Shown one piece after another: positions 576-23,079 of a stretch of DNA of 23,079 nucleotides. The notes under the pieces were generated by a model. It was not told the origin of the DNA. It worked only from the letters and a program-made list of their open reading frames with translations, and searched no databases. This DNA is from Capsulimonas sp. (GTDB taxonomy: Bacteria; Armatimonadota; Armatimonadia; Armatimonadales; Capsulimonadaceae): NCBI GenBank assembly GCA_025963815.1, contig JAOQAA010000510.1, forward strand, positions 1-23,079. Reading direction: 5' to 3'. The position numbers and the translations under genes were made by a program. How positions within the stretch are numbered: the stretch's first letter is position 1; the number at the start of each line of letters is the position of its first letter.

Positions 576-613
576 GAACTTCTCCCTATCTTTCCACAAT
601 CTTTCGTTTCAGT

Positions 614-2490: not shown

Positions 2491-2588
2491 CTTTGCCGAA
2501 CTCTGGGTTGCGAGCTCGTTACGCGTGAACGATCGACCGGCGCCCTGCCCCGTGTTGCTTCAATCGCAGTTATTAAGAGCGTACTTTA

Positions 2589-3776: not shown

Positions 3777-3779
3777 CGC

Positions 3780-3802
3780 GGCGCGGCCATTTCGGCCGCG
3801 CC
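3780..3802 (+). terminator. GC-rich 9-bp hairpin before accB, possible attenuator
   Basis: GGCGCGGCC (3780-3788) pairs perfectly with GGCCGCGCC (3794-3802) across a 5-base loop. It sits just after the stop of the membrane protein gene and directly before the accB ribosome site GGAAAG (3803-3808). The downstream bases are only moderately T-rich, so it may be a weak terminator, a processing barrier or an element affecting accB translation. Confidence 0.45.
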
Positions 3803-3821
3803 GGAAAGTTTGATTTTGAAT

Positions 3822-4247: not shown

Positions 4248-4257
4248 GAGGACTCCG

Positions 4258-4836: not shown

Positions 4837-4866
4837 AAAGGGCCGCTCCGAGCCGCCGTCCAAATT

Positions 4867-6216: not shown

Positions 6217-6243
6217 CGGAATTTCCATGATGCAAGACATTTC

Positions 6244-7102: not shown

Positions 7103-7103
7103 T

Positions 7104-7571: not shown

Positions 7572-7584
7572 TACGAGACGCCCC

Positions 7585-8166
7585 ATGATCCTCTCCGACC
7601 GCAGCATCAAAGAAGGCGTCGCCGCCGGACGCATCACGATCACGCCCTACGACGAAAGTCTGGTCCAGCCGGCGTCGATCGACATCCGCCTCGACCACCG
7701 CTTCCGAGTCTTCCGAAACTACAAATATTCCGCCATCGATCCCAAAGCCGCCCAGGAAGGTCTCACGGAGATGGTGACCGCCGAAGAAGGCTCGCCGTTC
7801 GTGATCCATCCCGGCGAATTTATTCTCGCGAGCACATTAGAAAGTATCGCGCTCGGCGACGACTTAGTGGCCCGCCTGGAGGGCAAAAGCTCACTGGGAC
7901 GACTGGGGCTAGTCGTACACGCCACAGCGGGATATATCGATCCCGGCTTCTCGGGCCATATCACGCTGGAACTTTCCAATGTCGCCAATCTGCCGATTTT
8001 GCTCTACCCCGGCATGAAAGTCGGCCAGATCTCCTTCTTCGCCATGAGTACTCCCGCCGACCGCCCCTACGGCCACCCTGAGCTTGGCAGCAAGTACAAA
8101 GGCCAGAGCACCCCCACCGCGAGCCTTATGCACATGAACTTCCCAAGCGACGAGGAAAAATCGTAA
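7585..8166 (+). CDS. dcd: dCTP deaminase, probably bifunctional dUMP-forming
   Basis: The 193-residue protein belongs to the dCTP deaminase/dUTPase superfamily, supplying dUMP for thymidylate synthesis. Key parts are LSDRSIKEG at the start, LVQPASIDIRLD (27-37), EGKSSLGRLGL (99-109) and HATAGYIDPGFSGHITLEL (112-130) with catalytic E129. These segments resemble the Mycobacterium-type enzyme that converts dCTP directly to dUMP (deaminase plus pyrophosphatase) more than the E. coli monofunctional enzyme, as remembered. The substrate call is therefore inference from sequence style. It overlaps the next gene by one base (TAATG), so the two are translationally coupled. Confidence 0.92.
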   Translation: MILSDRSIKEGVAAGRITITPYDESLVQPASIDIRLDHRFRVFRNYKYSAIDPKAAQEGLTEMVTAEEGSPFVIHPGEFILASTLESIALGDDLVARLEGKSSLGRLGLVVHATAGYIDPGFSGHITLELSNVANLPILLYPGMKVGQISFFAMSTPADRPYGHPELGSKYKGQSTPTASLMHMNFPSDEEKS

Positions 8167-9395: not shown

Positions 9396-9401
9396 CATCT
9401 T

Positions 9402-10283
9402 ATGGCGACTATTCTTCTTGACGGCAATGCAACATCGAAGGCGATCCGCGCGGAAATCGCGCGGGACACGGCGCGGCTGACCGCCGCGACCGGCGTCGTC
9501 CCCAAGCTCGCGGCGATCCTGGCCGGCGACGACCCCGCATCCGCGACCTACGTGCAGATGAAGGCGCGCGCATCGGCCAAGGCGGGCATCGAATCCATCA
9601 CCTACCCGATCGCCAACGACGCCCCCGAGTCCGAAGTACGCGACCGATTGGCGCAGTTGAACGCCGATCCGACCGTGCACGGCATTCTGATCCAGCATCC
9701 CCTGCCCAAGCACATGGACGAACCCAGCATTCTTTCAGAGCTGAGCGCGGAGAAAGATGTGGACGGCATCGCCCCGATCTCCCTAGGGCGTCTGGTCGCC
9801 GGTCTGGATTCGTTCCACTCCTGTACCCCCGAAGGCATGATCGAATTACTCAAGCGCTACAATCTTCCTATCGCCGGCAAACACGCCGTGGTCGTCGGAC
9901 GCAGCGTGATTCTCGGCAAGCCGCTCGCCCTGCTGCTGCTCGCCGAGCACGCCACCGTCACGATCTGCCATTCACGCACGCCGAACCTCGCCGAAATCAC
10001 CCGGCAGGCCGACATCCTCTGCGCCGCCGTCGGCCGCGCCGAATTGATTACGGGCGACATGATCAAGCCGGGCGCCGTTGTACTGGACGCCGGCTACAAC
10101 AAAGTCGAGGGACGGGCCAAAGATGTGGGCGACGTCGAGTTCGAAAGCGCTTCGCTGGTCGCTTCGGCGATCACGCCTGTTCCCGGCGGCGTCGGCCCCA
10201 TGACCATCGCCATGCTTTTGCGCAACACGCTGACCGCGGCCGCCCGCAGCGCGGGCTTCTCGCTAGAACCGGAGACGGTGTGA
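9402..10283 (+). CDS. folD: Bifunctional methylenetetrahydrofolate dehydrogenase/cyclohydrolase FolD
   Basis: FolD interconverts 5,10-methylene-, 5,10-methenyl- and 10-formyl-tetrahydrofolate, feeding purine synthesis and formyl-Met. The 293-residue length is normal. Active-site residues are visible: Y50 and K54 in YVQMK, Q98 in HGILIQHPLPKH, D121 in KDVDGI. The NADP-binding part shows GRSVILGKPLALLL, followed by CHSRT, and the C-terminus has PVPGGVGPMTIAMLL. It starts six bases after the esterase stop and overlaps ispA by four bases (GTGA). In the similar Firmicutes-type gene order xseA and xseB lie between folD and ispA; here they are absent. Confidence 0.97.
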   Translation: MATILLDGNATSKAIRAEIARDTARLTAATGVVPKLAAILAGDDPASATYVQMKARASAKAGIESITYPIANDAPESEVRDRLAQLNADPTVHGILIQHPLPKHMDEPSILSELSAEKDVDGIAPISLGRLVAGLDSFHSCTPEGMIELLKRYNLPIAGKHAVVVGRSVILGKPLALLLLAEHATVTICHSRTPNLAEITRQADILCAAVGRAELITGDMIKPGAVVLDAGYNKVEGRAKDVGDVEFESASLVASAITPVPGGVGPMTIAMLLRNTLTAAARSAGFSLEPETV

Positions 10284-11173
10284 GTTTCGATCTGACGGCC
10301 TATCTGCAAGGGCGCCGCGTCCTGGTGGACGCGGCGCTAAACCACTATCTTCCTACGGAGGATCAAGAGCCGGATAAGATCCACGCCTCGATCCGCTACT
10401 CGATCTTCTGCGGCGGCAAACGCCTGCGCCCGATCTTGGCCCTCGCCGCCGCCGACGCCCTCGGCGCCGACTTTGCCCACGTCATGCCGCTTGCCTGCGC
10501 GGTGGAGTGCATCCACACCTTCTCCCTGATCCACGACGACCTGCCCGCCATCGATGACGACGACCTGCGGCGCGGCGCCCCGACTAACCACGTGGTCTAC
10601 GGCGAAGCGATGGCGATCCTCGCCGGCGACGCCCTCCTCGCCTTCGCCTTTGAACTCATCGCCGAATGCCGCGCCTTCTGCCCCGCCGACCGCGTCCTGG
10701 AAGCGCTCGTCATGGTCGCGCAGGCCAGCGGCACGCGCGGAATGGTGGGAGGACAGGTTTCCGATATCGAGTGCGAAGGCCGCGCCGACTTAGATGAACG
10801 CACCGTGGCGTCGATCCATGAACGCAAGACGGGCGCACTGCTCATCGCGTCTTTAGTCGCCGGCGCGCGCCTCTGCGGCGCCTCCAAAGCCCAGGAAAAC
10901 GCCCTGCGCCGCTACGGCGAAAAGATCGGTCTGGCGTTTCAGATTACCGACGATATTCTGGATCTCGAAGGGGATGCGGAAAAGCTGGGAAAACCACTCG
11001 GGAGCGATCTGAAGCAAGACAAGGCGACTTATCCAAAAATCCTGGGAATCGAAGAATCCCGCACGCTGGCAAGCCAAGCGGCGGAAGACGCCATCGCGTC
11101 CCTGTCCATCTTCGACGAGAAAGCCGATCCGCTGCGCGCGCTGGCGCGGTATATGGTGGAGCGGGACAATTAG
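10280..11173 (+). CDS. ispA: Polyprenyl synthetase, farnesyl diphosphate synthase type
   Basis: This enzyme joins isopentenyl units to make short prenyl diphosphates for quinones, carriers and hopanoids. The 297-residue protein has GGKRLRP (45-51), the first aspartate-rich motif HDDLPAIDDDDLRRG (85-99), MVGGQVSDIE, the ERKTGAL lysine and the second aspartate-rich motif QITDDILD (221-228). The first motif holds the two-residue insertion of bacterial FPP synthases, and F81, five residues before it, is bulky, favouring a C15 product; a C20 product is possible. The GTG start overlaps folD's stop. It is the last gene of the operon and runs straight into a strong palindrome. Confidence 0.93.
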   Translation: MSFDLTAYLQGRRVLVDAALNHYLPTEDQEPDKIHASIRYSIFCGGKRLRPILALAAADALGADFAHVMPLACAVECIHTFSLIHDDLPAIDDDDLRRGAPTNHVVYGEAMAILAGDALLAFAFELIAECRAFCPADRVLEALVMVAQASGTRGMVGGQVSDIECEGRADLDERTVASIHERKTGALLIASLVAGARLCGASKAQENALRRYGEKIGLAFQITDDILDLEGDAEKLGKPLGSDLKQDKATYPKILGIEESRTLASQAAEDAIASLSIFDEKADPLRALARYMVERDN

Positions 11174-11214
11174 GGACCTATTCCCCCGGCGCTAAAGCGC
11201 GGGGGAATAGGTCC
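11174..11214. terminator. Bidirectional palindrome between ispA and the FHA gene
   Basis: The stop codons of two convergent genes flank a near-perfect 41-base palindrome with no spare bases. GGACCTATTCCCCC (11174-11187) pairs with GGGGGAATAGGTCC (11201-11214), and inside it GCGC pairs with GCGC around TAAA, with one bulged G. There is no T-tract on either strand, so it may be a factor-independent barrier without a U-run, or an inserted repeat unit used as a shared 3' end. Confidence 0.65.
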
Positions 11215-12219
11215 TCACTCTTCAAACCGAAAGTAACTATCCCCGATCTTGATCTCGTCCCCCTGATGCAGTACGGCTTTCTCCACACGCATCCCATTCA
11301 CATACACCCCGTTCGCGCTCGCCTCGTCGATCAGCGTGATGTAGCCGCTCATTCCACGCTCAATGCGTGCGTGGCGACGGGAGACCTTGGTTTCGGCCAG
11401 GACGATCTCGTTATCGCCGTCGCGGCCGATCGACATCGTGGGGGTGGAAAGAACAAATCGTGCGCCAGCCGCCAGGCCTTCGGTTCCCACGAGGCGGGGC
11501 ATGTGGACGCGGCTGCGCCGGCGCGATCCTCGGTCGCCGGTTTTCGTGACCCGGTAACGAGGGCGGCGTTTACGTTCGGAGGCAGCGCCGCGTTCCGGCG
11601 ATGACAGTTCCCGGGATTCCCACGCCGGGGCTGAGGAGCCCTCGTAACCGTAAGCCGGCTGAGAACGGCGCATGAGCTTTTGGAAAATCCAGCTGCATAA
11701 TCCGGCCAGCGCCATTCCAATCAAGAATGTGGCGAGCGGCGTCTCCCACGCGTCCTCGGGATTCGTGGATGTGGGCGTTTCCGGGATGTGGTCGGCTTCG
11801 GCGTCTCCGTCGTGAGCGAGCGCCGATACCGCCGCCCGGGGAGGCGCCGCAGCCGCATCCGTCCCAGCAGAGGCGATCGGAACAAAATCGCTGACGAGCA
11901 GCGCCAGCGGTGGAACGGAGCCGGAAGGGCCTACATTGAGAGGCGCAGTCGCGAGACGGCCGGTTTTTCCGTCCAGCACAAAAAGCTTTTGGTCCGGTTC
12001 CTGCGGAATACGAACAGCGATGGAGGCGTGCCCACGCGATGTGAATGGCAGAACGGTTATCTTGTCCTGCCCCGAAGTGACCCAGATGGAAAAAAGACCG
12101 TTGTCCGGAAGATTCAGCACCAGTTGCTCCGCGCGCACGGAGCTGGCGGACGCCAGTAAAAACACACAAGTCACGGCTATCGATCGGACGATCCCAATGT
12201 GATACCATCGTTTACTCAT
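11215..12219 (-). CDS. Membrane-anchored FHA-domain protein
   Basis: A 334-residue protein with a signal-peptide-like N-terminus (about 8-30, ending SSVRA), a mostly beta-type extracytoplasmic region (about 32-120), a linker, one membrane segment (about 160-180), then a basic Ser/Arg-rich linker and a C-terminal FHA domain (about 245-332). FHA hallmarks are MSIGRDGDNEIVL, KVSRRHARIER, and ANGVYVNGMRV: the GR, SxxH and NG residues that read phosphothreonine. So it may link an envelope signal to Ser/Thr-kinase signalling. I chose ATG 12219: it forms an ATGA overlap with the preceding gene and has AGGGAA 6 bases away; ATG 12225 abuts that site. No kinase gene is nearby. Confidence 0.8.
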   Translation of the reverse strand: MSKRWYHIGIVRSIAVTCVFLLASASSVRAEQLVLNLPDNGLFSIWVTSGQDKITVLPFTSRGHASIAVRIPQEPDQKLFVLDGKTGRLATAPLNVGPSGSVPPLALLVSDFVPIASAGTDAAAAPPRAAVSALAHDGDAEADHIPETPTSTNPEDAWETPLATFLIGMALAGLCSWIFQKLMRRSQPAYGYEGSSAPAWESRELSSPERGAASERKRRPRYRVTKTGDRGSRRRSRVHMPRLVGTEGLAAGARFVLSTPTMSIGRDGDNEIVLAETKVSRRHARIERGMSGYITLIDEASANGVYVNGMRVEKAVLHQGDEIKIGDSYFRFEE

Positions 12220-13796
12220 TGGCATTTCCCTATCGCTTTCGGCAAGTATTCGATAATATCCCTGGCGATCAGCCCGGCCGCTCCGCCAAAATGCTGAGCG
12301 GCCAGGTCTCCCGCCAAACCGTGCACATACGCCCCGGCCGCCGCCGCATCGGCGGCGGCCAGCTTCTGGCCGAGCAGCGTTGCGATTACTCCCGTCAAGA
12401 CATCTCCCGATCCCCCGGTCGCCATGCCGGGGTTGCTTGTGGTATTGATGGTCAGCCGGCCGTCGGCATCTGAGATCAGCGTACGCGCTCCCTTGAGCAG
12501 AACGACGCAGCCGTAAGTTTTGGCGGCGGCGCGGACATTGCCCAGCCGATCCTCCTGCACCTGCGCGGTGGAAACACCGAGCAGACGCCCCATCTCTCCG
12601 GGATGCGGCGTCAGCACCGTGGCCGCCATGCGGCTGCGGATGATGGCGGCGCCGCGATCGGGCTCCATCGAGAGCGCGTTGAGGGCGTCGGCGTCAACTA
12701 CCAGAGGTACGGAGCAGCGCGCCGTGAACTCCCGCACGAATTCCCGGAGATCTTCGTCCTGAACGCCGCCAAGGCCGGGGCCGATCGCTGCGGCCGTTCC
12801 CTTAGCCGCCAGCGCCAGCGCTTCGTCCAGCGCCTGGGAAGAAAATGTCTGACGCGCCGTCTGCGGCAGCCCGGTCGTCATCACCACCGGGTTCGCCACG
12901 CTCATCGCCGCAGTCAGCACTCCCTCCGGCACAGCGAGCGTAACCAAGCCCGAGCCGGTGCGCGCTGCCGCTTCCGCGCTGAGCGCGGCGGCGCCGATGA
13001 AGCCCGCCGACCCGGCGAAGACCGTCACATGCCCAAATTTTCCTTTGTTCGCATCGCGGCCATTGACCCGCGCGGGAATCCAGCGTGCGATATCGCCAGC
13101 ATCCGTAACTCGCGCCGCTGCCCCGTCGAGCAAAATCCTCGGCGTTCCGATATCTCCGACGATCAATTCCCCTACGAATTCTGCAGCGGGAAAGACAAGC
13201 AGACCGATCTTCGGCAGTGCAAACGTTATTGTCAGAGACGCACGCACGGCGGAATCGTTCACATTCCCGGTATCGGCTTCAATGCCCGAAGGGACATCCA
13301 CTGCGACAACAAACGCCCCCACGCTTCCGGCCGCGTTGATCGACCCCGCCATGGATGCTCCCACGCCTTCTAAGGTCCCACGAAATCCCGTTCCCAGCAA
13401 TGCGTCGATCACAATCTCCGAAGACGCCAGCGACGAAGCGAGATCGGTGGGAATGGCGCCGTCAATCCGATGGATCGTCAGGCCGATCTTCTCAGCCATT
13501 AATAAATTCGCGGCAGCGTCCGCAGAGAGAGTTTCTCCCGGGCGTGCGGCCAGCCAAACCGTGACGTCAGCTCCCATCCGAACGGCGAGATGGCGGGCAA
13601 TAGCCAGGCCGTCGCCGCCGTTATTTCCCTTGCCACATACGACGGCGACACGCGCGCCAGCCAATGTGTGACGGGCGGCCAGCGTTTCCACCACACGAAG
13701 CGCGGCGTTCTCCATCAGGATCAGACTGGGAACGCCGAACTCCTTGATCGTGCGCCGATCAATCTCGCGCATTTCCTCAGATGTTGCAACATTCAT
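12216..13796 (-). CDS. nnr: Bifunctional NAD(P)HX epimerase/ADP-dependent NAD(P)HX dehydratase
   Basis: Nnr repairs hydrated, damaged NADH and NADPH. The 526-residue protein has the N-terminal YjeF_N epimerase domain (about 1-215) with GKGNNGGDGLAIARHL (55-70) and DALLGTGFRG, and the C-terminal carbohydrate-kinase-like dehydratase domain (about 240-520) with TPHPGEMGRLLG and NPGMATGGSGDVLTG, which holds the catalytic aspartate. Both halves are complete. GGAGGTG lies 9 bases before the ATG. It overlaps the aldo/keto reductase gene upstream and the FHA gene downstream by ATGA junctions, so the three form one translationally coupled unit. Confidence 0.95.
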   Translation of the reverse strand: MNVATSEEMREIDRRTIKEFGVPSLILMENAALRVVETLAARHTLAGARVAVVCGKGNNGGDGLAIARHLAVRMGADVTVWLAARPGETLSADAAANLLMAEKIGLTIHRIDGAIPTDLASSLASSEIVIDALLGTGFRGTLEGVGASMAGSINAAGSVGAFVVAVDVPSGIEADTGNVNDSAVRASLTITFALPKIGLLVFPAAEFVGELIVGDIGTPRILLDGAAARVTDAGDIARWIPARVNGRDANKGKFGHVTVFAGSAGFIGAAALSAEAAARTGSGLVTLAVPEGVLTAAMSVANPVVMTTGLPQTARQTFSSQALDEALALAAKGTAAAIGPGLGGVQDEDLREFVREFTARCSVPLVVDADALNALSMEPDRGAAIIRSRMAATVLTPHPGEMGRLLGVSTAQVQEDRLGNVRAAAKTYGCVVLLKGARTLISDADGRLTINTTSNPGMATGGSGDVLTGVIATLLGQKLAAADAAAAGAYVHGLAGDLAAQHFGGAAGLIARDIIEYLPKAIGKCQ

Positions 13797-14743
13797 TCTG
13801 AAAACACCTCCGCGATTCGGTCTCGCTCCGCCTCATTGACCGCCGGAACGCTCACGGCGGCGACATTTTCTTCCACCTGAGCCGGGGTCTTGGCGCCCGC
13901 GACCACGCAGGCCACAACGGGATCGTCCAGTACGAAGCGAATGGCCGCCTGCGCGGGAGTCCGCCCGTCACCGTTCGTCAAGAAGCGCAGCCGCGCAGCC
14001 GTCTCCGCCATCGCCGTCACATATTCCACAGGCAGTGATGCCCGGATATCCCCCTCGGGAAAGACGGATTCAGAGCCGTGCACTCCGGCGAGAAAACCGT
14101 TGGCCAGCGGCTCACGCGCCAGAATGGCGACTTTCTTTCGTCGCGCCAGCGGCAGCAGATCCGTCGTTGCTCCCTGGTAGAAGAGGCTGTAAGCGACTTC
14201 GATCGCCGTGACGGGCGCATCGTTCTCCAGCAGCCAAACACCGTCCGCCGGCTCGGCGACGGAGACGCCATAGTGATGGATCTTCCCGCCGCGCTGAAGC
14301 GCCTCCAGGGTATCCCACACGCGCAGGCGCTCCATCTCCTCCACGGGTGGGTTCATCAGGAGAAACAGGTCTAGTGTCTCCCGGCGCAGCCGTATCAGAC
14401 TTTGCTGGACGGCGTGCGCCAAAGCGAACGGCGTCCAATCCTGCTCCAGTGTATCGTCCTTGCGATAAAAATTGACCCCGCCCTTGGTCACCACGTAGGG
14501 CTGCGCTCCCGTCCAATCGCGCAGCACTTCGCCGATCAAGGCCTCACTATGGCCATGGCCATAAATATCAGCCGTGTCGATCAGATTGACGCCCAGCTCC
14601 AGCGCGCGCCACAGCGCGGCTTTGGAAACCTCGTCGTCGGTCGCGCCATAACTGTTGCCAAAGGCGTCCCCGCCAATCGCCCACCCTCCGAAACCGATCT
14701 CCGATACCTTCCAGCCCGTTCGGCCAAACTTTCGCATATGCAT
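13793..14743 (-). CDS. Aldo/keto reductase lacking the catalytic histidine
   Basis: A 316-residue aldo/keto reductase, a TIM-barrel NADPH enzyme. The tetrad residues D56 and Y61 (IDTADIYGHGHSE) and K87 (VVTKGG) are present. The fourth, normally His in D-L-x-x-x-H-x-P, is M130 in LDLFLLMNPP (codon ATG at about 14352-14356 on the minus strand). The C-terminal NADP-binding part looks intact (VVAGAKTPAQVEENVAAV). The substituted histidine normally helps orient the carbonyl, so activity may be altered, or act on a different substrate. Two in-frame ATGs (14743, 14737) are possible and neither has a strong ribosome site. It heads the coupled set with nnr and the FHA gene. Confidence 0.88.
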   Translation of the reverse strand: MHMRKFGRTGWKVSEIGFGGWAIGGDAFGNSYGATDDEVSKAALWRALELGVNLIDTADIYGHGHSEALIGEVLRDWTGAQPYVVTKGGVNFYRKDDTLEQDWTPFALAHAVQQSLIRLRRETLDLFLLMNPPVEEMERLRVWDTLEALQRGGKIHHYGVSVAEPADGVWLLENDAPVTAIEVAYSLFYQGATTDLLPLARRKKVAILAREPLANGFLAGVHGSESVFPEGDIRASLPVEYVTAMAETAARLRFLTNGDGRTPAQAAIRFVLDDPVVACVVAGAKTPAQVEENVAAVSVPAVNEAERDRIAEVFSE

Positions 14744-14939
14744 GGTGAGATATTACCGCATCGAGACCGTTCCTGAAAATGCTGTGTGCCTGCTAGGGGA
14801 ATACCATTCAGTATATCTTAAGAATGACGCATTGTCCAATTTTCATAGGTAATCGCGTTTGGAAGGTTTCCCTGGTATTTCCGTCAGTATAAAACTCGCT
14901 TCTTTTCTCCGATGATAGAATTATCACCAGGAAGGCCGT
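14744..14939. other. Divergent intergenic region, AKR operon and HD-GYP gene
   Basis: This 196-base, AT-richer gap separates two divergent transcripts. A convincing minus-strand promoter is present at 14810-14838. For the plus strand the best -10-like hexamer is TATAAA at 14888-14893, without a good -35 at 16-18 bases. No gene-like open frame is present. Confidence 0.5.
14810..14838 (-). promoter_or_regulatory. Sigma-A/sigma-70-type promoter for AKR-nnr-FHA
   Basis: Read on the minus strand, TGGACA (14833-14838, five of six matches to TTGACA) and TATACT (14810-14815, five of six matches to TATAAT) are separated by exactly 17 bases. The site lies 66 bases before the AKR ATG. No competing pair of this quality is seen in the gap. 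Confidence 0.6.
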
Positions 14940-16325
14940 TTGAATTTTATGGACGAGTCGCTCAAACCGACCGCGCTCTCGCTTGCCGAAATACTCTCGT
15001 CGCTCAGTTACGCTCTCGATCTTACCGGCGGACAGCCGATGGGGCACGCACAGCGCTCCTGCCTGATCGGGATGCGGATCGGATCGATGTACGGTCTCTC
15101 CGAAGGAGAACTGACCAGTCTTTATTACGCCATCTTGATGAAGGACGCCGGCTGCTCCAGCAACGCCGCGCGCATGTACGAGATCTTCGGCAGCGACGAT
15201 CTGAAGGCGAAGTGCGACAGCGCCGTGGTCGATTGGTCGAACATCTTCGAAGCGGCGCGCTACGCCGCCGCCCACGCACTGCCGTCGGGCTCGCTGTGCT
15301 CGCGGGCGGCGCGGGTTCTGAAGATCGGCGTCCAGGGATCACGGCAAAACCAGGAGATCCAAGAGTCCCGCTGTAACCGAGGGGCGCAGATCGCGATGAT
15401 GCTTGGGCTGGGCAAGTCGGCGGCCGATTGTATCCGCTCGCTGCCCGAGCGATGGAACGGTTCCGGCGCGCCGCTGGGGCTGCGCGGCGAAGCTATCCCA
15501 CTGCTTTCCCGCATCGCATCGCTGGTGCAGACACTGGATGTGTTCGATCGTACTTTCGGCCTGGATGCGGCGTATGACATGGCGACGAAAAGGTCCGGAC
15601 GCTGGTTTGATCCGGATCTGGTCCGAATCGCACTGCGGTTTCGGCACGACGCTCGGTTCTGGAATGAGGTTCGTACTTCTGCCCGAGAGACACTGCTGGA
15701 TCTCGATATCCGCGGCGCGATTGAGGTTGCGACCGAGACAAGGATTGATTCCATCTGTGACGCCTTCGCGCAAATCGTGGACGCCAAATCTCCCTTTACC
15801 GGCCAGCATTCGTCACGGGTGTGTGATTATACGATCCAGATCGCTCGTGAATTCGGGATTTCCGGCGTGCGGCTCACGACACTGAGGCGGTCAGCGCTGC
15901 TGCACGATGTCGGAAAGCTTGCCGTACCGAACACGATTTTAGACAAGCCCGGCAAGCCGGACGAGGAAGAATGGAACTGCATCCGCCGCCATCCTTTCCA
16001 TACGCAGCAAATTCTTCAGCAGATTCCCGGCTTCAAGCGCATCACGGAGATTGCGTCCGCTCACCATGAGCGCCACGAAGGGCGCGGCTACTTCCAGGGC
16101 CTGAGCGGCGATCAGCTGGACCTAGACATGAGAATACTCGCGGTCGCCGATGTGTACGACGCCCTCTCCGCTGACCGCCCCTATCGAGGAGCGATGACGC
16201 CCGAAGAAGTCTTCGCCATTCTGGACAAAGATCGAGGCGTGGCGCTGGACTCTGACTGCATCGATGTCCTGAGGAAATACGGCCTTCCCAGCGCCCCGGC
16301 GCCTCCTCTGCTGCGCGCGGCGTAA
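14940..16325 (+). CDS. Tandem HD/HD-GYP domain protein, c-di-GMP phosphodiesterase-like
   Basis: A 461-residue protein. The C-terminal half (about 265-440) is an HD-GYP domain: H290, the HD pair H322-D323 in LLHDVGKLAVPN, H350, HHERHEGRGYFQGL (375-388) and D404 in ADVYDALSADRPYRG. The normal GYP triplet is GYF. The N-terminal half (about 20-215) looks like a decayed copy: GHAQRSCLIGMRIG, then LYYAILMKDAGC where HD is KD, then ERWNGSGAPLGLRGEAIPLLSRI. So the active half probably hydrolyses a cyclic nucleotide and the first half may be regulatory. The TTG at 14940 has AGGAAGG (14929-14935) 4 bases upstream; ATG 14949 is 13 bases away, so I prefer TTG. Confidence 0.85.
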   Translation: MNFMDESLKPTALSLAEILSSLSYALDLTGGQPMGHAQRSCLIGMRIGSMYGLSEGELTSLYYAILMKDAGCSSNAARMYEIFGSDDLKAKCDSAVVDWSNIFEAARYAAAHALPSGSLCSRAARVLKIGVQGSRQNQEIQESRCNRGAQIAMMLGLGKSAADCIRSLPERWNGSGAPLGLRGEAIPLLSRIASLVQTLDVFDRTFGLDAAYDMATKRSGRWFDPDLVRIALRFRHDARFWNEVRTSARETLLDLDIRGAIEVATETRIDSICDAFAQIVDAKSPFTGQHSSRVCDYTIQIAREFGISGVRLTTLRRSALLHDVGKLAVPNTILDKPGKPDEEEWNCIRRHPFHTQQILQQIPGFKRITEIASAHHERHEGRGYFQGLSGDQLDLDMRILAVADVYDALSADRPYRGAMTPEEVFAILDKDRGVALDSDCIDVLRKYGLPSAPAPPLLRAA

Positions 16326-16377
16326 CGGCGTCATTGCGCGTTGGTATAGCCTGCTCGTTTCTGGGTACATAAAGCGC

Positions 16378-17466
16378 ATGAGCGCCACAACCCCACCCAC
16401 CGAAACAACGGAACCCGTCCATAACGAGCAGGCGGGCGACACATCTTCTGATCAGAAGTGTGTCTCAATCATTTTTAATCCCGTCTCGGGTCAGAGCGAT
16501 CCTGAGGCACGCAAAAAGAGCATCTCAGAGGCGCTCGCCGAGCACGGATATCGATGTCAGTTTATTGAGACCACCAAGGAAGTCGGCGGCGAGGAGCTGG
16601 CGAAAAAAGCGCTGAGTTCCGGCGTCGATCTGATCGCGGTGTCCGGCGGCGACGGCACCGTGATCGAGGTTCTCTCCGCCACCATTGGCTCAAATATCCC
16701 GGTCGCCGTGCTGCCGGCCGGCACCGGAAACCTGCTTTCCGTCAATCTCGGCATTCCCACCACCGTTCCCGAAGCTGTTCACGTGGCGCTGTCAGGACAT
16801 CCCTATTGTCTCGATCTCGCCCGTTCGAACGACGGCAAGCACTTCGCGATCATGGGCGGCCTCGGCCTGGACGCCCGAATGATCAAGGACGCCGACCGCG
16901 AGACGAAAAACCGTCTTGGAGTATTCGCGTATCTGTGGGCGGCCCTGAAAAACCTGCCTAAGAGAGGCGCCGTTGTCGAGATCGTACTGGACGGCAAGCC
17001 GCCGATCCGCGCCCGTGCTAAAAGTGTGCTGATCGCCAATATGGGCAAGGTAACCGGCGGCGTGGAGGCGATGCCGACCGCGTCTCCCAACGACGGTCTG
17101 CTGGATATTGGGATCGTCAAGGCGGAAACCCTCGCACAGTGGCTGCGGATCGCCGGCTATGCGCTGATGGGCCGAACGCAGGACGCTCCCGAGCTGGATG
17201 TCTATCAGGCCAAAAAGATCACTGTCCGCACGCCCACCCCCGAGCCGATCGAGTTCGACGGCGAATCGGGAGGCGACACCCGCGAATGGAGCGTAGAAGT
17301 CGTACCCAGCTGCGTCAATATTCTCCTCCCGGAGGGCGCCCCCGCCGCGAAAGACGCCCAAGGCTCACCCGAAGCGATGGCGAAGAGAAATCTCACCGGC
17401 CTTGCGGTCAGCGCGGGAATTGTGGCCACGATCGCAACGCTGATTGTTTGGCGACGACGCAAATAA
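16378..17466 (+). CDS. Diacylglycerol/lipid kinase-family protein with C-terminal membrane anchor
   Basis: A 362-residue DAGK-catalytic (YegS/DgkB/BmrU) family protein that would phosphorylate a lipid using ATP. Motifs include IIFNPVSGQ (31-39), AVSGGDGTVIEVL (87-99, the GGDGT nucleotide loop), VLPAGTGNLLSVNLGI (111-126) and MGGLGLDARMI. The C-terminal domain has NDGLLDIGIVK and a membrane-proximal beta-sandwich ending near 315. Unusually, it carries a hydrophobic tail of about 18 residues followed by WRRRK at the end (340-362), a tail anchor not found in typical cytosolic members. No strong ribosome site is seen before ATG 16378. It ends at an intrinsic terminator. Confidence 0.9.
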   Translation: MSATTPPTETTEPVHNEQAGDTSSDQKCVSIIFNPVSGQSDPEARKKSISEALAEHGYRCQFIETTKEVGGEELAKKALSSGVDLIAVSGGDGTVIEVLSATIGSNIPVAVLPAGTGNLLSVNLGIPTTVPEAVHVALSGHPYCLDLARSNDGKHFAIMGGLGLDARMIKDADRETKNRLGVFAYLWAALKNLPKRGAVVEIVLDGKPPIRARAKSVLIANMGKVTGGVEAMPTASPNDGLLDIGIVKAETLAQWLRIAGYALMGRTQDAPELDVYQAKKITVRTPTPEPIEFDGESGGDTREWSVEVVPSCVNILLPEGAPAAKDAQGSPEAMAKRNLTGLAVSAGIVATIATLIVWRRRK

Positions 17467-17492
17467 GATTTATGAAATAAGATTGCTTCACG

Positions 17493-17542
17493 AAAAAGCC
17501 GTCTGCTCGTCTTCGTTTTGAAGCGCGGGCAGACGGCTTTTT
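17493..17542. terminator. Bidirectional intrinsic terminator
   Basis: AAAAAGCCGTCTGC (17493-17506) pairs perfectly with GCAGACGGCTTTTT (17529-17542). The 22-base loop contains a smaller stem (CTTC/GAAG). A run of T follows on the plus strand and, by symmetry, on the minus strand, so it can stop both the lipid kinase transcript and the convergent DUF5666-like transcript. Confidence 0.9.
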
Positions 17543-17564
17543 CTATCTTAAGCTTGCGGAGTGA

Positions 17565-18332
17565 TTACTGAACCGGAGCGGGCGCGGGACCACCCTGGCC
17601 ACCGCCACGACGGCGTCCGCCCTGACCGCCAGGAGCACCCTGTCCACCAGGGCCGCCTTGACCGCCGCCACGTCCAAAGCCCATGCCATTCATGACGCGC
17701 ACGGTGGTGGCGACCTGAGAGCCCGCGTCACCCGTGACTTCGGCGCTGACAAACGAGTCCGTCTTCACGTCCGACCACGAACCAGCCGCCGGTCCCGTGA
17801 TGCGCGTATCGGCCGTCGTCGTGACGGTGATGGTCTTGCCGTCGGCCGTCGTAATCGTCAGAGCGGGCTTGAGCGTTGCGATCACGCCCATCGTGCCGCC
17901 ACGGCGTCCACCGCGGCCGCCAGGGCCCCCTGCCCCGCCGGGAGCGCCGGCTCCAGGACCACCAGCGCCGCCGGGACGTCCCGCGCCAGGTCCGCCCTGA
18001 CCGGCCGGAACGACCGTGATGGAGCGAGCTTCGACATTGCCGCTGTCATCGGGGCGTCCGCCGACGCGGATATTATCGCCGACCTTCAGGGAGTCGAGGG
18101 TCTTGGTCGCTTCCACGGTGTACTTGGTCGCATCGGTGACCTTGAATGTGGTCGTGGTGGGCTCCGCCTGTGGGTCGCGGAAGTTACGGCTTGTCACGGT
18201 GATGGTTTTCGCCGCAGCGTCCACCGCCGAAACCTGCCCCATCACTCGATCGTCTCCGGGAGCCGCGTGAACTGCCGAAATTGCGACGATTGCCGTCATG
18301 GCCGCCATCGCGGGCCAAAATGCGTGCTTCAT
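17565..18332 (-). CDS. Exported DUF5666-like protein with Gly/Arg-rich linker and tail
   Basis: A 255-residue exported protein with a signal peptide (MKHAFWPAMAAMTAIVAISA, cut near VHA). Two similar beta-barrel-like units follow: DRVMGQVSAVDAAAKTITVT (about 27-95) and MGVIATLKPALTITTADGKT (about 145-205), resembling DUF5666 repeats in which a 'xVDxxxxTITV' strand pair recurs. They are joined by a Gly/Pro/Arg-rich linker and followed by another in the tail. I chose ATG 18332, where the signal peptide starts; ATG 18344 is also possible. It lies 85 bases downstream of the Spy-like gene on the same strand, so may be in the sigma-factor operon. DUF5666 assignment is from memory; function unknown. 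Confidence 0.7.
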   Translation of the reverse strand: MKHAFWPAMAAMTAIVAISAVHAAPGDDRVMGQVSAVDAAAKTITVTSRNFRDPQAEPTTTTFKVTDATKYTVEATKTLDSLKVGDNIRVGGRPDDSGNVEARSITVVPAGQGGPGAGRPGGAGGPGAGAPGGAGGPGGRGGRRGGTMGVIATLKPALTITTADGKTITVTTTADTRITGPAAGSWSDVKTDSFVSAEVTGDAGSQVATTVRVMNGMGFGRGGGQGGPGGQGAPGGQGGRRRGGGQGGPAPAPVQ

Positions 18333-18416
18333 GCTGTTTTCCATCCTTCTCGAGCTGTTGTCTGAATTACGAACCTGTTTGTGTTGAGTGAAAGCTTGCC
18401 ATGCTTTGAAAGCGAT

Positions 18417-18920
18417 TTAGCGCGGCGTCCAGTCGCGATGACCGTGGCTGGGATCTCCCGGGCCGCCGTGTCCGCCGTCCGGTCTCGGCCGCCGCTGGAT
18501 CGATGATTGAAGCTGCGCGAACTGATCCGGAGTCAGGATCTTGCGCAGCTGCTGCTGGTCGGAAAGGCGCAGATCGAGCAGCTGTCCCTGCACCCGGTTC
18601 AAATCCTGGTTGAGCCGCGCCGCGGCGGCGGCGTCCAGATCGTACTTGCGATAAACATCCGAAAGCTTGCGCCGGGTCTGCTGCAGCTGGGAGAACAGGT
18701 CGGCGGATTGCGTTCTTGAGGCGCTCTCCAGCGCCGTCAGTCTTTGCTGCTGCGCCGGCGTCAAGTTCATGCCGTTTGTCTCGTTATCGACCAGACGGAT
18801 CCCAGGATGCTCGCCTGGGGCCGCTCCCACGGAAGCCACGCAGATCAGAGTCGCCGCCAGACACGCCGCAGCGCCCCGGCCCGCGAGTTTCAATTGTTTT
18901 GCGAATCGAGATGTGTCCAT
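18417..18920 (-). CDS. LTxxQ-type (Spy/CpxP/CnrX-like) periplasmic protein
   Basis: A 167-residue protein with an N-terminal hydrophobic signal/anchor (about 13-33). The mature part is helical, with two 'LTP' helix starts: NLTPAQQQRLTALE (52-65) and ILTPDQFAQLQ (128-138), the pattern of the Spy/CpxP LTxxQ family of periplasmic chaperones and metal sensors. The C-terminus is Gly/His-rich (HGG, HGHRD), which could bind metal. It overlaps the end of the anti-sigma gene by 31 bases and has GGAAG before its ATG. With a sigma factor and anti-sigma factor upstream, it resembles CnrX-type sensors that act with such a pair, though that is inference. Confidence 0.8.
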   Translation of the reverse strand: MDTSRFAKQLKLAGRGAAACLAATLICVASVGAAPGEHPGIRLVDNETNGMNLTPAQQQRLTALESASRTQSADLFSQLQQTRRKLSDVYRKYDLDAAAAARLNQDLNRVQGQLLDLRLSDQQQLRKILTPDQFAQLQSSIQRRPRPDGGHGGPGDPSHGHRDWTPR

Positions 18921-19405
18921 ATTTCTTCCATCGACCCGCCCGCTGGATCGTCCACAGCCGAGTTAGAGGTCGAAACGTCGCTCAATGTGTGCCAGGAAGC
19001 AAGCGTGTCCGCCGAAGCGACATGGCTAACAGAGGCTCCAGGCGTCGTGTCCGCCGCCGTGACCGGCACAGAAACGGGATGTTCAGAACGAGGCGACGGC
19101 GGCCGCAGCGTCACCAACGCCACCACGACCAGCGCAACGGCGCCGCTCCAAACAAGGCGTGGAGCGGGCAAAACGCGACGGCGGCGCGGCTCCAGACGAT
19201 GCGCCATTGGCGCCCACAAATCCTTGGAGGAAGTTTTCTCACGGCTCCAGTCGCGAAACGCCTGCCGCAGCTGCGCTTCTGATCGCATCAAGCGAGCGCA
19301 AGAAACGCATGTTTCGCCATGGCTCTCCATTTGCGCGGCGAGATTGGCCGAGAGCTTTCCTGCGGCCCAGTCCGCCGCCAGCGATTCTAAATATCGACAA
19401 TTCAT
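18890..19405 (-). CDS. Zinc-finger-type membrane anti-sigma factor
   Basis: The 171-residue protein has a ZAS-type N-terminus with H29-G-E-T-C33-V-S-C36 (the HxxxCxxC motif), a further C3, and one membrane helix at about 86-101, then an extracytoplasmic Ser/Thr/Ala-rich region. Such proteins hold an ECF sigma factor at the membrane and release it on stress. I chose ATG 19405, which overlaps the sigma factor stop by ATGA; a frame open further upstream lies inside the sigma gene and has no family features. Coupled translation should keep the two in balance. Confidence 0.88.
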   Translation of the reverse strand: MNCRYLESLAADWAAGKLSANLAAQMESHGETCVSCARLMRSEAQLRQAFRDWSREKTSSKDLWAPMAHRLEPRRRRVLPAPRLVWSGAVALVVVALVTLRPPSPRSEHPVSVPVTAADTTPGASVSHVASADTLASWHTLSDVSTSNSAVDDPAGGSMEEIWTHLDSQNN

Positions 19406-20052
19406 GCATATTCCTCGGGCGACGCGGCTTCCATAGCGGCGCGCAAACGACGGCGCGCTCGCATTACTCGAACCCGCAGCAGCGGTCCCGGACACTGGGT
19501 GATCCGAGCAATCTCGTCGTAACCCATTTCCTCGCCATAGTACAGGGTCAGCAGCAAACGGTCGTCTACTTTCATCTCCTGAAGGCACTTGTCCAAAAGA
19601 CGAGATCGCTCCATCGCTTCCAGATTGCCCAGCGCGACTGCTTCCGCGTCTTCCGTCACGACATCCGCCCAGTCCACCGGCGGCGCCGTCCGCCGCAGAG
19701 CCTTACGCCGCCGTAATCGGTCATAAGCAATGTTGGTGGCGATCCGGTAAATCCATGTGGAAAAGCTCGAGCGGCGCTCGAACCGATCCGCATCGCGCCA
19801 AACACGCAGAAACACATCCAAGACCGCTTCTTCGGCGTCTTCCTGAGTACCCAGCAAGGGACTGAGATAACGGAACAGCCGAGGCTGATAGCGGCGCACG
19901 ATCTCACGCATGGCGGCGGGATCGTCCTGCGCGCAGCGCTGGACGAGCAGCAGATCCGTCTCCGCGTGCTCACAAGCCGCGAGGTCCGAATGATCGCGCA
20001 GATTGTCGCTCTGCGCGCCCCCGGCAAATTCCAGCGGCGCCATCATACTCAT
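19402..20052 (-). CDS. ECF (sigma-70 family) RNA polymerase sigma factor
   Basis: A 216-residue ECF sigma factor with a ~35-residue N-terminal extension. Region 2: QRCAQDDPAAMREIVRRYQP, then LLGTQEDAEEAVLDVFLRVWR and FSTWIYRIATNIAYDRLRRR. Region 4: DRLLLTLYYGEEMGYDEIAR and RVRVMRARRRLRAAM. ATG 20052 has AAGGGTGG a few bases upstream; GTG 20058 abuts it. It is followed by its anti-sigma factor and by envelope proteins, so it probably directs an envelope-stress or metal regulon, and may control its own promoter; I could not identify that promoter with confidence in 20053-20314. Confidence 0.92.
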   Translation of the reverse strand: MSMMAPLEFAGGAQSDNLRDHSDLAACEHAETDLLLVQRCAQDDPAAMREIVRRYQPRLFRYLSPLLGTQEDAEEAVLDVFLRVWRDADRFERRSSFSTWIYRIATNIAYDRLRRRKALRRTAPPVDWADVVTEDAEAVALGNLEAMERSRLLDKCLQEMKVDDRLLLTLYYGEEMGYDEIARITQCPGPLLRVRVMRARRRLRAAMEAASPEEYA

Positions 20053-20141
20053 CGCCACCCTTGCCCCGCCTGTCCCGGTGATTTCGAGTTCATCTGAATG
20101 CGTAGACGCAGGAAAGTCGCCCCCGTATCACTTTTTTGGGC

Positions 20142-20167
20142 AATATTGAAAATAAATTTTCAATATT
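20142..20167. promoter_or_regulatory. Perfect AT-rich palindrome, possible operator
   Basis: AATATTGAAAAT (20142-20153) and its exact reverse complement (20156-20167) are separated by two bases. It sits between the two divergent transcripts at the edge of the AT-rich island. A dimeric repressor site for either side, or a hairpin of the insertion, would both fit. There is no T-tract that would make it a strong terminator. Confidence 0.45.
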
Positions 20168-20239
20168 TGTAGAGCGAGCAGCTCCCCTGACCTAGTCGTT
20201 CGATTGATTGCGTCTCGAAAATCTCTTAATTACTGCATT

Positions 20240-20265
20240 GCACCAATATATTATTGTGCTTTTTT
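20240..20265 (+). terminator. Terminator-like hairpin with six T upstream of SIR2-TPR
   Basis: GCA and CAATA (20240-20242, 20244-20248) pair with TATTG and TGC (20252-20259) around a 3-base loop with one bulge, followed by TTTTTT. It could block read-through into the SIR2-TPR gene or be an attenuator. The stem is AT-rich and weak. Confidence 0.3.
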
Positions 20266-20282
20266 GTTTGCTGTGCTAAGAT
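20254..20282 (+). promoter_or_regulatory. Weak promoter candidate for the SIR2-TPR gene
   Basis: TTGTGC (20254-20259) and TAAGAT (20277-20282) are 17 bases apart, with the start codon 33 bases after the -10. Both hexamers match the sigma-A consensus only partly. The -35 overlaps the terminator-like hairpin, so only one of the two readings is probably right. Confidence 0.3.
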
Positions 20283-20314
20283 AGTCACACATTCTGCGCG
20301 TTAGGAGACAGGCT

Positions 20315-22186
20315 TTGACATCTGAGATTGAAAAGGGAAAAATGATTTCCTTGTTAGAAGCGGTGAGCGAAATCAAGCAAGCATGCAGCACACCTACGTT
20401 AGGCACCTCTAAAGGTGATAAAGTGCGTTCTCCTTTTTTCTTCTTCACAGGTTCAGGAATCTCATATCCGTCAATTCCGCTTGCGCCTGAGGTGCTACGT
20501 CACTGCGAAGAAGTCGCTCAGGATTTGGGACGTGTAATCAAACAGCCAAACTCTGACCCCAACTACGCCTACTCGCAATGGTTCAAGGCAGCGTACCCGC
20601 ATCGTATCCAACGTCAAGAATACCTGCGCAGTCTTATAACAGATGCACCTATTACACACGCCAACTTCCGACTAGCCCACCTCCTCCTAGAAACTAACGT
20701 CACGAATGTTGTCGTCACCGTAAATTTTGACGACCTACTATCTCATGCATTAACGCTATTTGGTAAAACACCAGTTATATGTGACGATCCTCGGACCGTA
20801 GAACGTATAGATCCAGAGAAGCCTGATATTCAGTTAATCCACGCACATGGCTCATATTGGTTTTACGATTGCCGCAATACTAGCGAGGAAATCGTAGATA
20901 GGGCAAGGTCGCTTGAGGACACTACTCTAACCATGGCCGCATTACTCGATAAAATCCTGGCTTATCGTGCTCCCTTAGTCATTGGCTATAGTGGATGGGA
21001 AAGTGATGTGTTTATGACTGCTTTGAAGCGTCGTTTACTTACACCGTTACCATTCAATCTCTATTGGTTCTGTTTCCGTCGAGATCAGGTGGCCGATATG
21101 CCTCGCTGGCTAGTATCACATCCCGATGTATATTTCGTTGTGCCGCCGATGCTAAAGAATAACGATGGTGATGACACATCTAAACAAAATGACAGCGATC
21201 CTGTTGATCCAACGCTCAGTGCCACGGAAGTTCTCGACGCTATGATTGAACAACTAGGAGTAGCCTCGCCATCATTGACTAAAGATCCTCTTTCGTTCTT
21301 TGCTAACCAACTACGTCACTCGATTCCTGCAAACGAATCAGAGAATCGCAATGATATTTATTCGTTTCGTAGTGTAATTGAACGAATTGAAAGGGCTCAG
21401 CACTTAGAGTCTGAACACAGAGAGAATATTGAGACTCAATTAGAGAACGTTCGTGATGCTCTACGTCGCGCCCAGTACGATGAGGCAACAGAACATGCAC
21501 AACAGATCATAATTGATGATTTAACGGAAAATCAATTGCGCGACTTAATAAAGGCCATGGACTCAGCTGTAGATGCGTTGCCTGTAAACAATTCAAAAAC
21601 AACACAAGCATGTGTTACACTTATTAGTTGTTATGATGCGTTAGTAAAAAAAGCAGGAAATCAACCTGAATTAGAATATGCGACAGCAAGATCATTAAAC
21701 AATGAAGGGAGCTACTTTCTTAACGTTAAACAACCAGACAAGGCGCTGTTAGTATATCAAGGGGCCATAGAACGTTTCGAAAAATCATCAAACCCCAAAC
21801 TGCACAACATTGTAGGTATTTTATGGAATAATTTAGGAGTAACATTACTACATCTAAAAAGGTTTCAGGAGGCCATTGACGCAGCACATGCAATAATAAC
21901 TATGAATAAAACAAAAAGCGAATATTTCTATAATAACCAACCTATAACAGCACTAATAATCGAAGGCAAAGCACTGGCGAAGATGGGGCTATATCAAGAA
22001 GCGTTAGATATATTTAGCAAAGCAAATAAAGAAGCCGAAGCTGCTCCCAGTATGACAACATACGCTAAGGGTATGTTAGAGTCTTCAAAAACTGAACAAG
22101 CCTTGGCTCGTGCTCAGCTTCTTAGTGTTCCAATTGCCGCCAAGCCGCCGCTGCCGATACCGCCTGCCGCCAAGCCAAAAGAATAA
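20315..22186 (+). CDS. SIR2-like NADase domain plus TPR protein, candidate defence gene
   Basis: A 623-residue protein in an AT-rich island. The N-terminal SIR2-like domain (about 38-280) shows FFFFTGSGISYPSIPLA (41-57, the Rossmann NAD loop), VTVNFDDLLSHAL (134-146, catalytic-type N137), IQLIHAHGS (172-180, H178) and VIGYSGWESD (222-231). A helical middle (about 340-420) and a TPR-like region (about 455-575: NNEGSYFLNVKQPDKALLVY, then NNLGVTLLHLKRFQEAIDAA, then GKALAKMGLYQEALDIFSKA) follow. SIR2 domains fused to sensor regions in known defence proteins (ThsA, DSR1/2, Avs5, SIR2-HerA) deplete NAD during phage infection; the same role here is inference. TTG 20315 has AGGAG seven bases upstream. 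The C-terminal 20 residues form an Ala/Pro/Lys tail encoded by GC-rich DNA. No partner gene is adjacent. Confidence 0.85.
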   Translation: MTSEIEKGKMISLLEAVSEIKQACSTPTLGTSKGDKVRSPFFFFTGSGISYPSIPLAPEVLRHCEEVAQDLGRVIKQPNSDPNYAYSQWFKAAYPHRIQRQEYLRSLITDAPITHANFRLAHLLLETNVTNVVVTVNFDDLLSHALTLFGKTPVICDDPRTVERIDPEKPDIQLIHAHGSYWFYDCRNTSEEIVDRARSLEDTTLTMAALLDKILAYRAPLVIGYSGWESDVFMTALKRRLLTPLPFNLYWFCFRRDQVADMPRWLVSHPDVYFVVPPMLKNNDGDDTSKQNDSDPVDPTLSATEVLDAMIEQLGVASPSLTKDPLSFFANQLRHSIPANESENRNDIYSFRSVIERIERAQHLESEHRENIETQLENVRDALRRAQYDEATEHAQQIIIDDLTENQLRDLIKAMDSAVDALPVNNSKTTQACVTLISCYDALVKKAGNQPELEYATARSLNNEGSYFLNVKQPDKALLVYQGAIERFEKSSNPKLHNIVGILWNNLGVTLLHLKRFQEAIDAAHAIITMNKTKSEYFYNNQPITALIIEGKALAKMGLYQEALDIFSKANKEAEAAPSMTTYAKGMLESSKTEQALARAQLLSVPIAAKPPLPIPPAAKPKE

Positions 22187-22334
22187 TCAAGAATCTTATA
22201 GACAGGAATCGAACCAAACATAAGAGTCAATAACTCAACATTTTAAGTTTCGAGCTATAGCTAGGTGCCGCCTTCGGAACTCTGTTATAACGAAAATAGT
22301 TACAACAATCAGAGCAGATTGAAGGAGCGGAAAA
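22187..22334. other. Short spacer at the right edge of the AT-rich island
   Basis: These 148 bases are still AT-rich for the first hundred or so and then return to host-like composition at about 22320. No terminator hairpin, promoter pair or direct repeat matching the left edge was seen. They hold the ribosome site AAGGAG (22322-22327) of the next gene. Confidence 0.5.
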
Positions 22335-22850
22335 TTGGAGAATTCAACGGCGAAAGAACTCACGGCGCGGCCGATCGATGCGGGCGTTTCCATCGGGCAC
22401 GTGCATTTGAAGGTGGCGAACCTCGACCGGGCGCTGGCTTTTTATCAGGGTGTGCTGGGGTTTGAAGTGGTCGTGCGAATGGGAGACAGCGCGGCGTTTA
22501 TTTCGGCCGGCGGCTACCATCACCACATCGGGCTGAACACCTGGGAAAGCAAGGGCGGATCTCCCCCACCCCCGGGAACCACAGGCCTCTACCATGTGGC
22601 GATTCTATACCCAACGCGGGCGGCGCTGGCCGACGCCTTGAAACGGCTGATCGCGGCGGGGATTTCTCTGGACGGCGCGAGCGACCATGGCGTCAGCGAA
22701 GCGTTGTATCTGTCTGATCCGGACGGAAACGGCGTAGAGCTTTACTGGGACCGGCCGCGCGATCAATGGCCGCTGACTCCCGAAGGCGAAGTGACGATGT
22801 ACACACGGCGTCTGGATTTGCAGGGATTGCTCGCGGCGGATGCAGTGTAA
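22335..22850 (+). CDS. VOC-family protein (glyoxalase/extradiol dioxygenase fold)
   Basis: A 171-residue protein with paired beta-alpha-beta-beta-beta units of the vicinal oxygen chelate superfamily, like the CatE/YfiE-type group. Visible parts: IGHVHLKVANLDRALAFYQ with the first-metal-ligand H, GGYHHHIGLNTW, GLYHVAILYPTRAALADALK, and SDPDGNGVELYWDRP with the final glutamate ligand. The TTG start is fixed by AAGGAG 7 bases upstream. The next gene starts 54 bases later on the same strand, so they may form an operon. The reaction cannot be told from the sequence: glyoxalase, fosfomycin-resistance and dioxygenase roles all use this fold. Confidence 0.85.
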   Translation: MENSTAKELTARPIDAGVSIGHVHLKVANLDRALAFYQGVLGFEVVVRMGDSAAFISAGGYHHHIGLNTWESKGGSPPPPGTTGLYHVAILYPTRAALADALKRLIAAGISLDGASDHGVSEALYLSDPDGNGVELYWDRPRDQWPLTPEGEVTMYTRRLDLQGLLAADAV

Positions 22851-22904
22851 AGAATATCACGGACGGGTAAAGTAAGCCACGAATTCACGCGAGAGGAGCG
22901 GCTT

Positions 22905-23079
22905 ATGAGCACGATCACGAAAGATTTCGAAGAGTTTATGAAGCGGCGCACGAAAGCGGCGAACGCTTATGTGAACGGAGACGCGAAACCGCTGAGCGGC
23001 TTGACGGCGCAAAAATCGCCCGCGACGTTCTTTGGTCCTGGCGGCGGCTTTACTCAAGGCGCTGGGGATGTGCAGTCAC
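22905..23079 (+). CDS. SnoaL/NTF2-like (ketosteroid isomerase-fold) protein, 3' part missing
   Basis: An open frame runs from ATG 22905 to the window end (58 codons and one extra base) with no stop, so the gene is partial. GAGAGGAG lies 6 bases before the ATG. The start has an amphipathic helix (DFEEFMKRRTKAANAYV), then NGDAKPLSGL, then SPATFFGPGGGF and QGAGDV, which is the cone-shaped NTF2/SnoaL/DUF4440-like pattern of small ligand-binding or isomerase proteins. It follows the VOC gene on the same strand. Its full length and active residues are outside the window. Confidence 0.7.
   Translation, partial: MSTITKDFEEFMKRRTKAANAYVNGDAKPLSGLTAQKSPATFFGPGGGFTQGAGDVQS

Follow-up and report, generated by a model that had tools for sequence, protein, structure and literature searches.

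A lone SIR2-TPR gene in an AT-rich insert of Capsulimonas sp. as a candidate one-gene defence effector

The window, by which we mean the whole 23,079-nucleotide stretch analyzed here (Capsulimonas sp., a soil bacterium of the Armatimonadota; GenBank assembly GCA_025963815.1, contig JAOQAA010000510.1, forward strand), carries near its right end one intact gene for a protein of 623 amino acids in which a SIR2 domain is joined to tetratricopeptide repeats (TPRs). This SIR2-TPR gene lies alone in an AT-rich insert between two native genes. An earlier note, made from the sequence alone, had proposed that it encodes an undescribed anti-phage defence protein acquired horizontally. We consider it fairly probable that the gene is a horizontally acquired one-gene defence effector, namely an NADase that carries its TPR sensor in the same protein and is directed against phage or similar invaders. 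The insert and the parts of the gene are as follows.

20138..22325 (no strand): AT-rich single-gene insert, GC content 0.426, delimited by blastn and by pairwise alignment with the empty site of genome G001; the right border lies within 22325-22360 and is not sharper
20303..20307 (+): AGGAG, ribosome-binding-site-like, 7 bases before the TTG start, read from the sequence
20315..22186 (+): SIR2-TPR gene, 623 amino acids, intact (open reading frame, Pfam, AlphaFold2 model with mean pLDDT 90.5)
20339..21154 (+): SIR2 domain, residues ~9-280, predicted NADase effector (Pfam, PADLOC, AlphaFold2 model, fold comparison)
20450..20464 (+): GSGIS, residues 46-50, by family analogy the loop that binds NAD (family alignments)
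20723..20725 (+): N137, aligned with N142 of SPARSA (phmmer alignment, family conservation)
20846..20848 (+): H178, aligned with H186 of SPARSA (phmmer alignment, family conservation)
21215..21502 (+): helical middle part, residues 301-396 (model and conservation)
21527..22126 (+): TPR superhelix, residues 405-604, predicted sensor (Pfam, AlphaFold2 model, conservation)

Base composition sets the insert apart. Its GC content of 0.426 compares with 0.613 over positions 1-20137 and 0.597 over 22326-23079, and the lowest value of any 2-kb stretch elsewhere is 0.566 (50-base steps, bases 1-20000). Both line counts of G+C given in the earlier note, 19 of 60 at 21781-21840 and 41 of 60 at 10621-10680, were exact. 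Codon use changes as the note had stated, GC content at third codon positions (GC3) being 0.370 in the SIR2-TPR gene versus 0.729 in the 13 other window genes pooled, with a minimum of 0.677 among the 13. In G001, a genome of the same genus, the SIR2-TPR gene is absent and both flanking genes are kept, head to head and about 200 bp apart; their proteins are 90% (glyoxalase) and 78% (sigma factor) identical to those of the window. Another gene of the flanks, for a lipid kinase, is closest among named matches to one of Capsulimonas corticalis (80%). By blastn, the G001 segment matches window positions 19254-20137 and 22360-23071 and nothing between. Firm homology on the right begins at 22360, and a weaker pairwise alignment reaches back to about 22325. 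The break at 20137 and the resumption near 22325 place the island at about 20138-22325, close to the 20100-22330 claimed before. Because the site is empty in G001 and both GC and GC3 are shifted, the SIR2-TPR gene is a horizontally acquired single-gene insert, in agreement with the earlier note; conservation of the gene at this locus in a relative, which the note had named as a finding that would speak against its proposal, was not seen in G001. GC3 drops along the gene, being 0.48 in its first sixth and 0.26 in its fifth sixth, so that AT-richness is higher in the sensor part than in the effector part.

Three further features lie at or beside the borders of the insert.

19402..20058 (-): left flank, gene for a sigma-70-family (ECF-like) factor, native backbone (Pfam, G001 homology)
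20142..20167 (no strand): inverted repeat on the inner side of the left border, with perfect 12-bp arms around a 2-base centre (repeat search, resampling)
22335..22850 (+): right flank, glyoxalase/dioxygenase-family gene, native backbone (Pfam, G001 homology)

The inverted repeat consists of A and T except for two G/C pairs and occurs once in the source genome, allowing up to 3 mismatches. When the insert was resampled 200 times (order 1), arms of that length never arose, and the repeat is possibly an operator. No integrase or transposase was seen among the open reading frames (ORFs) of the insert, nor was there a tRNA at the insert or a clear target-site duplication at its borders. No known RNA family reached gathering score within 19900-22500, and scans for promoters (6 sites versus a shuffle mean of 4.2) and terminators (3 versus 2.2) gave no clear signal above shuffles. 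The SIR2-TPR gene has a copy number of one in the source genome, an assembly of 734 contigs that is 69% complete.

The architecture and the catalytic positions named in the earlier note were borne out by ORF analysis, Pfam and alignments. Pfam assigns SIR2_2 (PF13289) to residues 132-236 (E 1.7e-9) and TPRs to residues ~457-575, with the best TPR_1 and TPR_2 matches at ~503-529 (E 8e-10 to 1e-9). The PADLOC check suggested in the note (version 2.0.0) covered the SIR2 part alone, where short-pAgo SIR2 models match residues 76-261 (E 6e-19) and PDC-S65 gives a weaker match (E 3e-10, residues 125-252); a weak match to RTas346 (E 0.014) lies outside it. Two PHROGs families of unknown function also match the SIR2 part.

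Structure prediction, likewise suggested in the note, points in the same direction. In a fold comparison of the predicted model, ranks 1-42 are taken by chains of SPARSA, KomC, ThsA, DSR2, Avs5 and SIR2/HerA entries, and the first classical sirtuin appears at rank 43 among the best 50 chains. SPARSA is the closest fold in that comparison, and the best Foldseek match is DSR2. Run against the Sir2 chain of SPARSA, phmmer pairs N137 with N142 and H178 with H186 (chain numbers counted from the alignment). Alanine mutants of SPARSA N142 and H186 lost NADase activity (PMC10781750), and the corresponding pair reported for DSR2 is N133/H171 (PMC10981675). The alignment therefore puts the asparagine and histidine of the earlier note on catalytic residues proven in SPARSA. 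These positions and those of the glycine loop are kept across 39 family loci (from a pattern-based scan with one genome per species, which is not exhaustive): G46 in 38, G48 in 37, S50 in 37 and N137 in 38, the remainder being gaps, and H178 in 39 of 39. Over 70 sequences, mean pairwise identity is 0.608 for residues 40-280, 0.469 for 301-396 and 0.336 for 405-604, indicating a conserved effector with a divergent tail. The helical middle part contains the family-invariant positions P319, L321, P325, L326, Y349 and R384. Inspection of the only cysteines of the protein (24, 64, 156, 186, 253, 433 and 439, with no CxxC pair) showed that the zinc-binding Cys tetrad of deacylases is absent. With its catalytic Asn-His pair and GxGxS loop in place, the SIR2 part is predicted from alignment and model to work like an immune-type SIR2 NADase.

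Comparison with described systems suggests a relative of several of them and a member of none. In SPARSA the SIR2 domain is followed by APAZ, where the window protein has its TPR tail instead; sequence similarity ends at about residue 261 and structural similarity at about residue 339, with SIR2-APAZ models matching residues 78-261 only. No short Argonaute gene lies beside the SIR2-TPR gene, and no Piwi match was found in the source genome, as far as its 69% completeness allows. The window protein resembles DSR2 in being a single protein with an N-terminal SIR2 domain, a helical middle and a C-terminal sensor. It differs in size (623 versus ~990 residues) and in whole-length superposition (rmsd >20), and no DSR2 model is among its PADLOC matches at E up to 1. 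Avs5 likewise combines an N-terminal SIR2 effector with C-terminal repeats, TPR in some, as sensor (PMC12931631), whereas the window protein has no STAND NTPase between effector and repeats (no STAND or AAA match in Pfam at E up to 1). Thoeris ThsA has a SLOG domain in place of the TPR tail, and no TIR partner (ThsB) was found among the immediate neighbours scanned. Unlike SIR2-HerA systems, the gene has no HerA-type partner: its neighbours are the sigma factor and glyoxalase genes, and none is recurrent in the 39 loci. The phage-defence candidate PDC-S65 of PADLOC is alike in the SIR2 part, with the rest of the 623 residues unmatched. SIR2 is also among the effectors joined to TPRs in effector-TPR-GreA/B-C-PIN systems (PMC8195603), but the window protein contains neither GreA/B-C nor PIN (Pfam, E up to 1). 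Classical sirtuin deacylases differ in having the zinc Cys tetrad. Since one defining feature each of SPARSA, DSR2, Thoeris, Avs5 and SIR2-HerA was looked for and found lacking, the SIR2-TPR protein is SIR2-immune-effector-like and outside these five, so that the note was right to keep it apart from the named systems by layout, a result of Pfam, PADLOC and the Piwi search.

The gene belongs to a sizeable family. A protein search returned 342 proteins at E <=1e-3 among 8000 candidates scored, the best being 65% identical; among the best 120 of the 342, most are unnamed and the remainder have names such as TPR or SIR2 family protein. The short-pAgo SIR2 model PDLC02419 matches all 70 members of alignment A2, and one PDC-S65 model matches 61 of the 70. 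An open frame extends over ~95% or more of the match in 39 of 39 loci. Occurrence is patchy: a threshold of E 1e-40 is passed by 3 of 291 genomes within Armatimonadota, and G290 is a second genome of the phylum with the SIR2-TPR gene; among the source genome and 60 relatives, 7 of 61 match at E 1e-3, strongly only in the source genome itself and G027. The tree, in which 38 of the 39 loci were placed (L062, 210 amino acids, was left out) and 37 have a phylum label taken from record titles, spans nine phyla. It requires 13 changes of phylum label, between a possible minimum of 8 and a shuffle mean of 20.9: Acidobacteriota account for 7, Myxococcota for 3 and Planctomycetota for 3, and Bacillota hold together. 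This pattern fits descent with repeated transfer, single transfers not being proven. At 29 of the 39 loci the family gene is lower in GC than the genes beside it (median difference -0.040; sign test 0.003; Wilcoxon 3.5e-5), compared with 80 of 158 for other genes of at least 400 residues.

Neighbouring genes of the relatives give no partner. The widest cluster among 310 neighbour ORFs, aldehyde-dehydrogenase-like (named by eye and domain scan), occurs at 3 of 39 loci and at differing offsets, so that a fixed partner gene was rejected and the stand-alone character stated in the earlier note was confirmed. A consistent housekeeping context, which the note had listed as contrary evidence, was not seen since there is no consistent context of any kind. 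Phage_integrase was found in 2 of the 118 nearest ORFs. The family is large, widespread, stand-alone and apparently unstudied. The word "undescribed" applies only to PADLOC 2.0.0, NCBIfam and the literature covered (mostly without subscription papers and bioRxiv), where we found no account of a stand-alone SIR2-TPR family.

If the gene acts in defence, its TPR superhelix would bind an invader product, most likely a phage protein, and the binding signal would be relayed via the helical middle part. The SIR2 domains may then come together, like those of other immune sirtuins, in an active oligomer that would split NAD+, and the infected cell would stop growing or die before phage maturation. ThsA and Avs5 are reported to depend on filaments (PMC12700824), the repeat domain of Avs5 is its likely sensor (PMC12931631), and DSR2 is built of a sensor CTD, a MID and a SIR2 domain (PMC10981675). 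Should this proposal be correct, the SIR2 immune NADases would gain a large stand-alone family in which a single gene supplies effector, relay and sensor. It would also provide a handy test of TPR sensing and SIR2 switch-on without a partner or a STAND NTPase.

Several observations weigh against a role in defence or against mobility of the family. In PADLOC at E 1e-15, 41 families were matched in the 118 nearest ORFs (from 37 of 39 loci) versus 80 in a random sample of 118 of the 133 farther ORFs; these are family counts rather than gene counts, as one restriction-modification protein matches many models, and 25 families were itemised per set. Association with defence islands was accordingly not shown, and with fewer defence families in the nearest genes there is no guilt by association. 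A tyrosine occupies the H178 column in one homologue (P0072, in a 38-row alignment). GC3 is lower in 29 of 39 loci versus 72 of 158 controls, a modest shift (Wilcoxon 0.022): the effect of AT-richness is weaker than for GC, yet not due to amino-acid make-up alone. Six of the 7 loci labelled Myxococcota are not AT-richer. Among mobile-element records, matches were limited to 1 plasmid of 72,556, 2 distant phages of 50,697 and 1 IMG/VR contig; the plasmid relative (36%) lies on a Priestia plasmid, less than 6 kb from an integrase and a recombinase gene. The defence-effector claim of the earlier note therefore stands in part, favoured by the predicted immune-type SIR2 fold and the aligned catalytic pair, and not by the nearest neighbours of the relatives, which are not richer in defence models.

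The anatomy and distribution of the family are also compatible with a SIR2 NAD-consuming enzyme that works in conflict and not chiefly against phage, for example in plasmid exclusion, as a selfish addiction-type gene or as a cell-damage sensor triggering programmed cell death. The lack of defence-gene enrichment nearby agrees with such a role, and SPARSA, the closest fold, is reported to sense phage or plasmid DNA (PMC10981675). However, no recurrent antitoxin-like partner adjoins the gene, most solved SIR2 immune relatives in the fold comparison belong to phage-defence systems (DSR2, ThsA, Avs5, SIR2-HerA), and we regard this alternative as unlikely. A regulatory or metabolic sirtuin uninvolved in conflict, be it a deacylase or an ADP-ribosyltransferase, whose TPR tail serves for docking is improbable given the missing zinc-type Cys tetrad, the immune SIR2s as closest folds and sequence models, and a gene that is patchy and horizontally acquired.

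Two alternatives concern the state of the gene rather than its function. It could be decayed or silent in this genome and without present function; its copy has no homogenised repeat array, it is alone in AT-rich DNA, and its promoter signal is not clearly above shuffle level. The frame is nevertheless intact, all catalytic positions are present, and the nearest relatives, P0001 and P0006, are as repeat-degenerate and as long, which makes decay very improbable. The fragmented assembly and the sharp jump in composition might also suggest a foreign piece misjoined into the contig, but the insert falls precisely between genes that are direct neighbours in G001, with both flanks aligning up to it, and an artefact of this kind is hardly credible. 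A one-protein defence effector is the explanation that we prefer over these four.

Many relatives differ from the window protein in their tails. Internal identity at a lag of 30-54 residues is at least 0.5 in 64 of the first 120 homologues and at least 0.7 in 36, and the best lag is 43 residues in all 22 proteins listed. At DNA level, L040:9734-10598 holds 6.7 copies of a 129-bp unit with 86% matches, and L034:7344-7943 holds 4.7 copies with 90% matches. Judged from sequence, such near-identical 43-residue C-terminal arrays look like recent array turnover, and they provide a direct way to ask if bacterial sensors evolve by repeat turnover. The window gene has no homogenised array (internal identity 0.21; no TRF row). 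With the array of homologue P0047 (residues 470-889) as query, 778 proteins were found, and SIR2_2 is present in 21 of the best 120. Nine array proteins without SIR2_2, hand-picked from these matches (P0121, P0152 and P0123 among them), were scanned with Pfam. A trypsin-like domain in one and a ParA-like domain in another score above the cut-off; AAA_16 (in three) and nSTAND3 (in one) fall below it, and the remaining three gave only repeats and weak, scattered matches. Since unrelated TPR proteins are picked up by searches of this kind, and the query was the array of P0047 rather than the tail of the window protein, a shared sensor module is a lead. A wider interpretation, which seems to us possible and rather doubtful, is that the family forms a switch-free innate immune receptor, in which a conserved SIR2 NADase and relay are coupled to a rapidly rebuilt 43-residue TPR-like array in lone genes across phyla. 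Joined to further N-terminal domains as well (trypsin-like protease, ParA-like, perhaps AAA_16 NTPases), the diversifying array would serve several killing devices as the part that recognises invaders, the SIR2 version needing no STAND NTPase.

The viral records show varied settings. On the IMG/VR contig (L068), from a Gram-positive-type prophage, a SIR2-TPR relative (36%) is on the opposite strand to adjoining portal-like and capsid-like genes, named by eye. A distant SIR2 protein is encoded between repressor and integrase genes in Vibrio phage 10N.286.45.B12_PE001 (temperate-type), and another in the archaeal pleolipovirus Haloferax virus Halfgib1. Elsewhere in the window, the native backbone carries a gene for the NAD(P)HX repair enzyme (epimerase-dehydratase; 12216-13796, - strand), linked to NAD by topic only.
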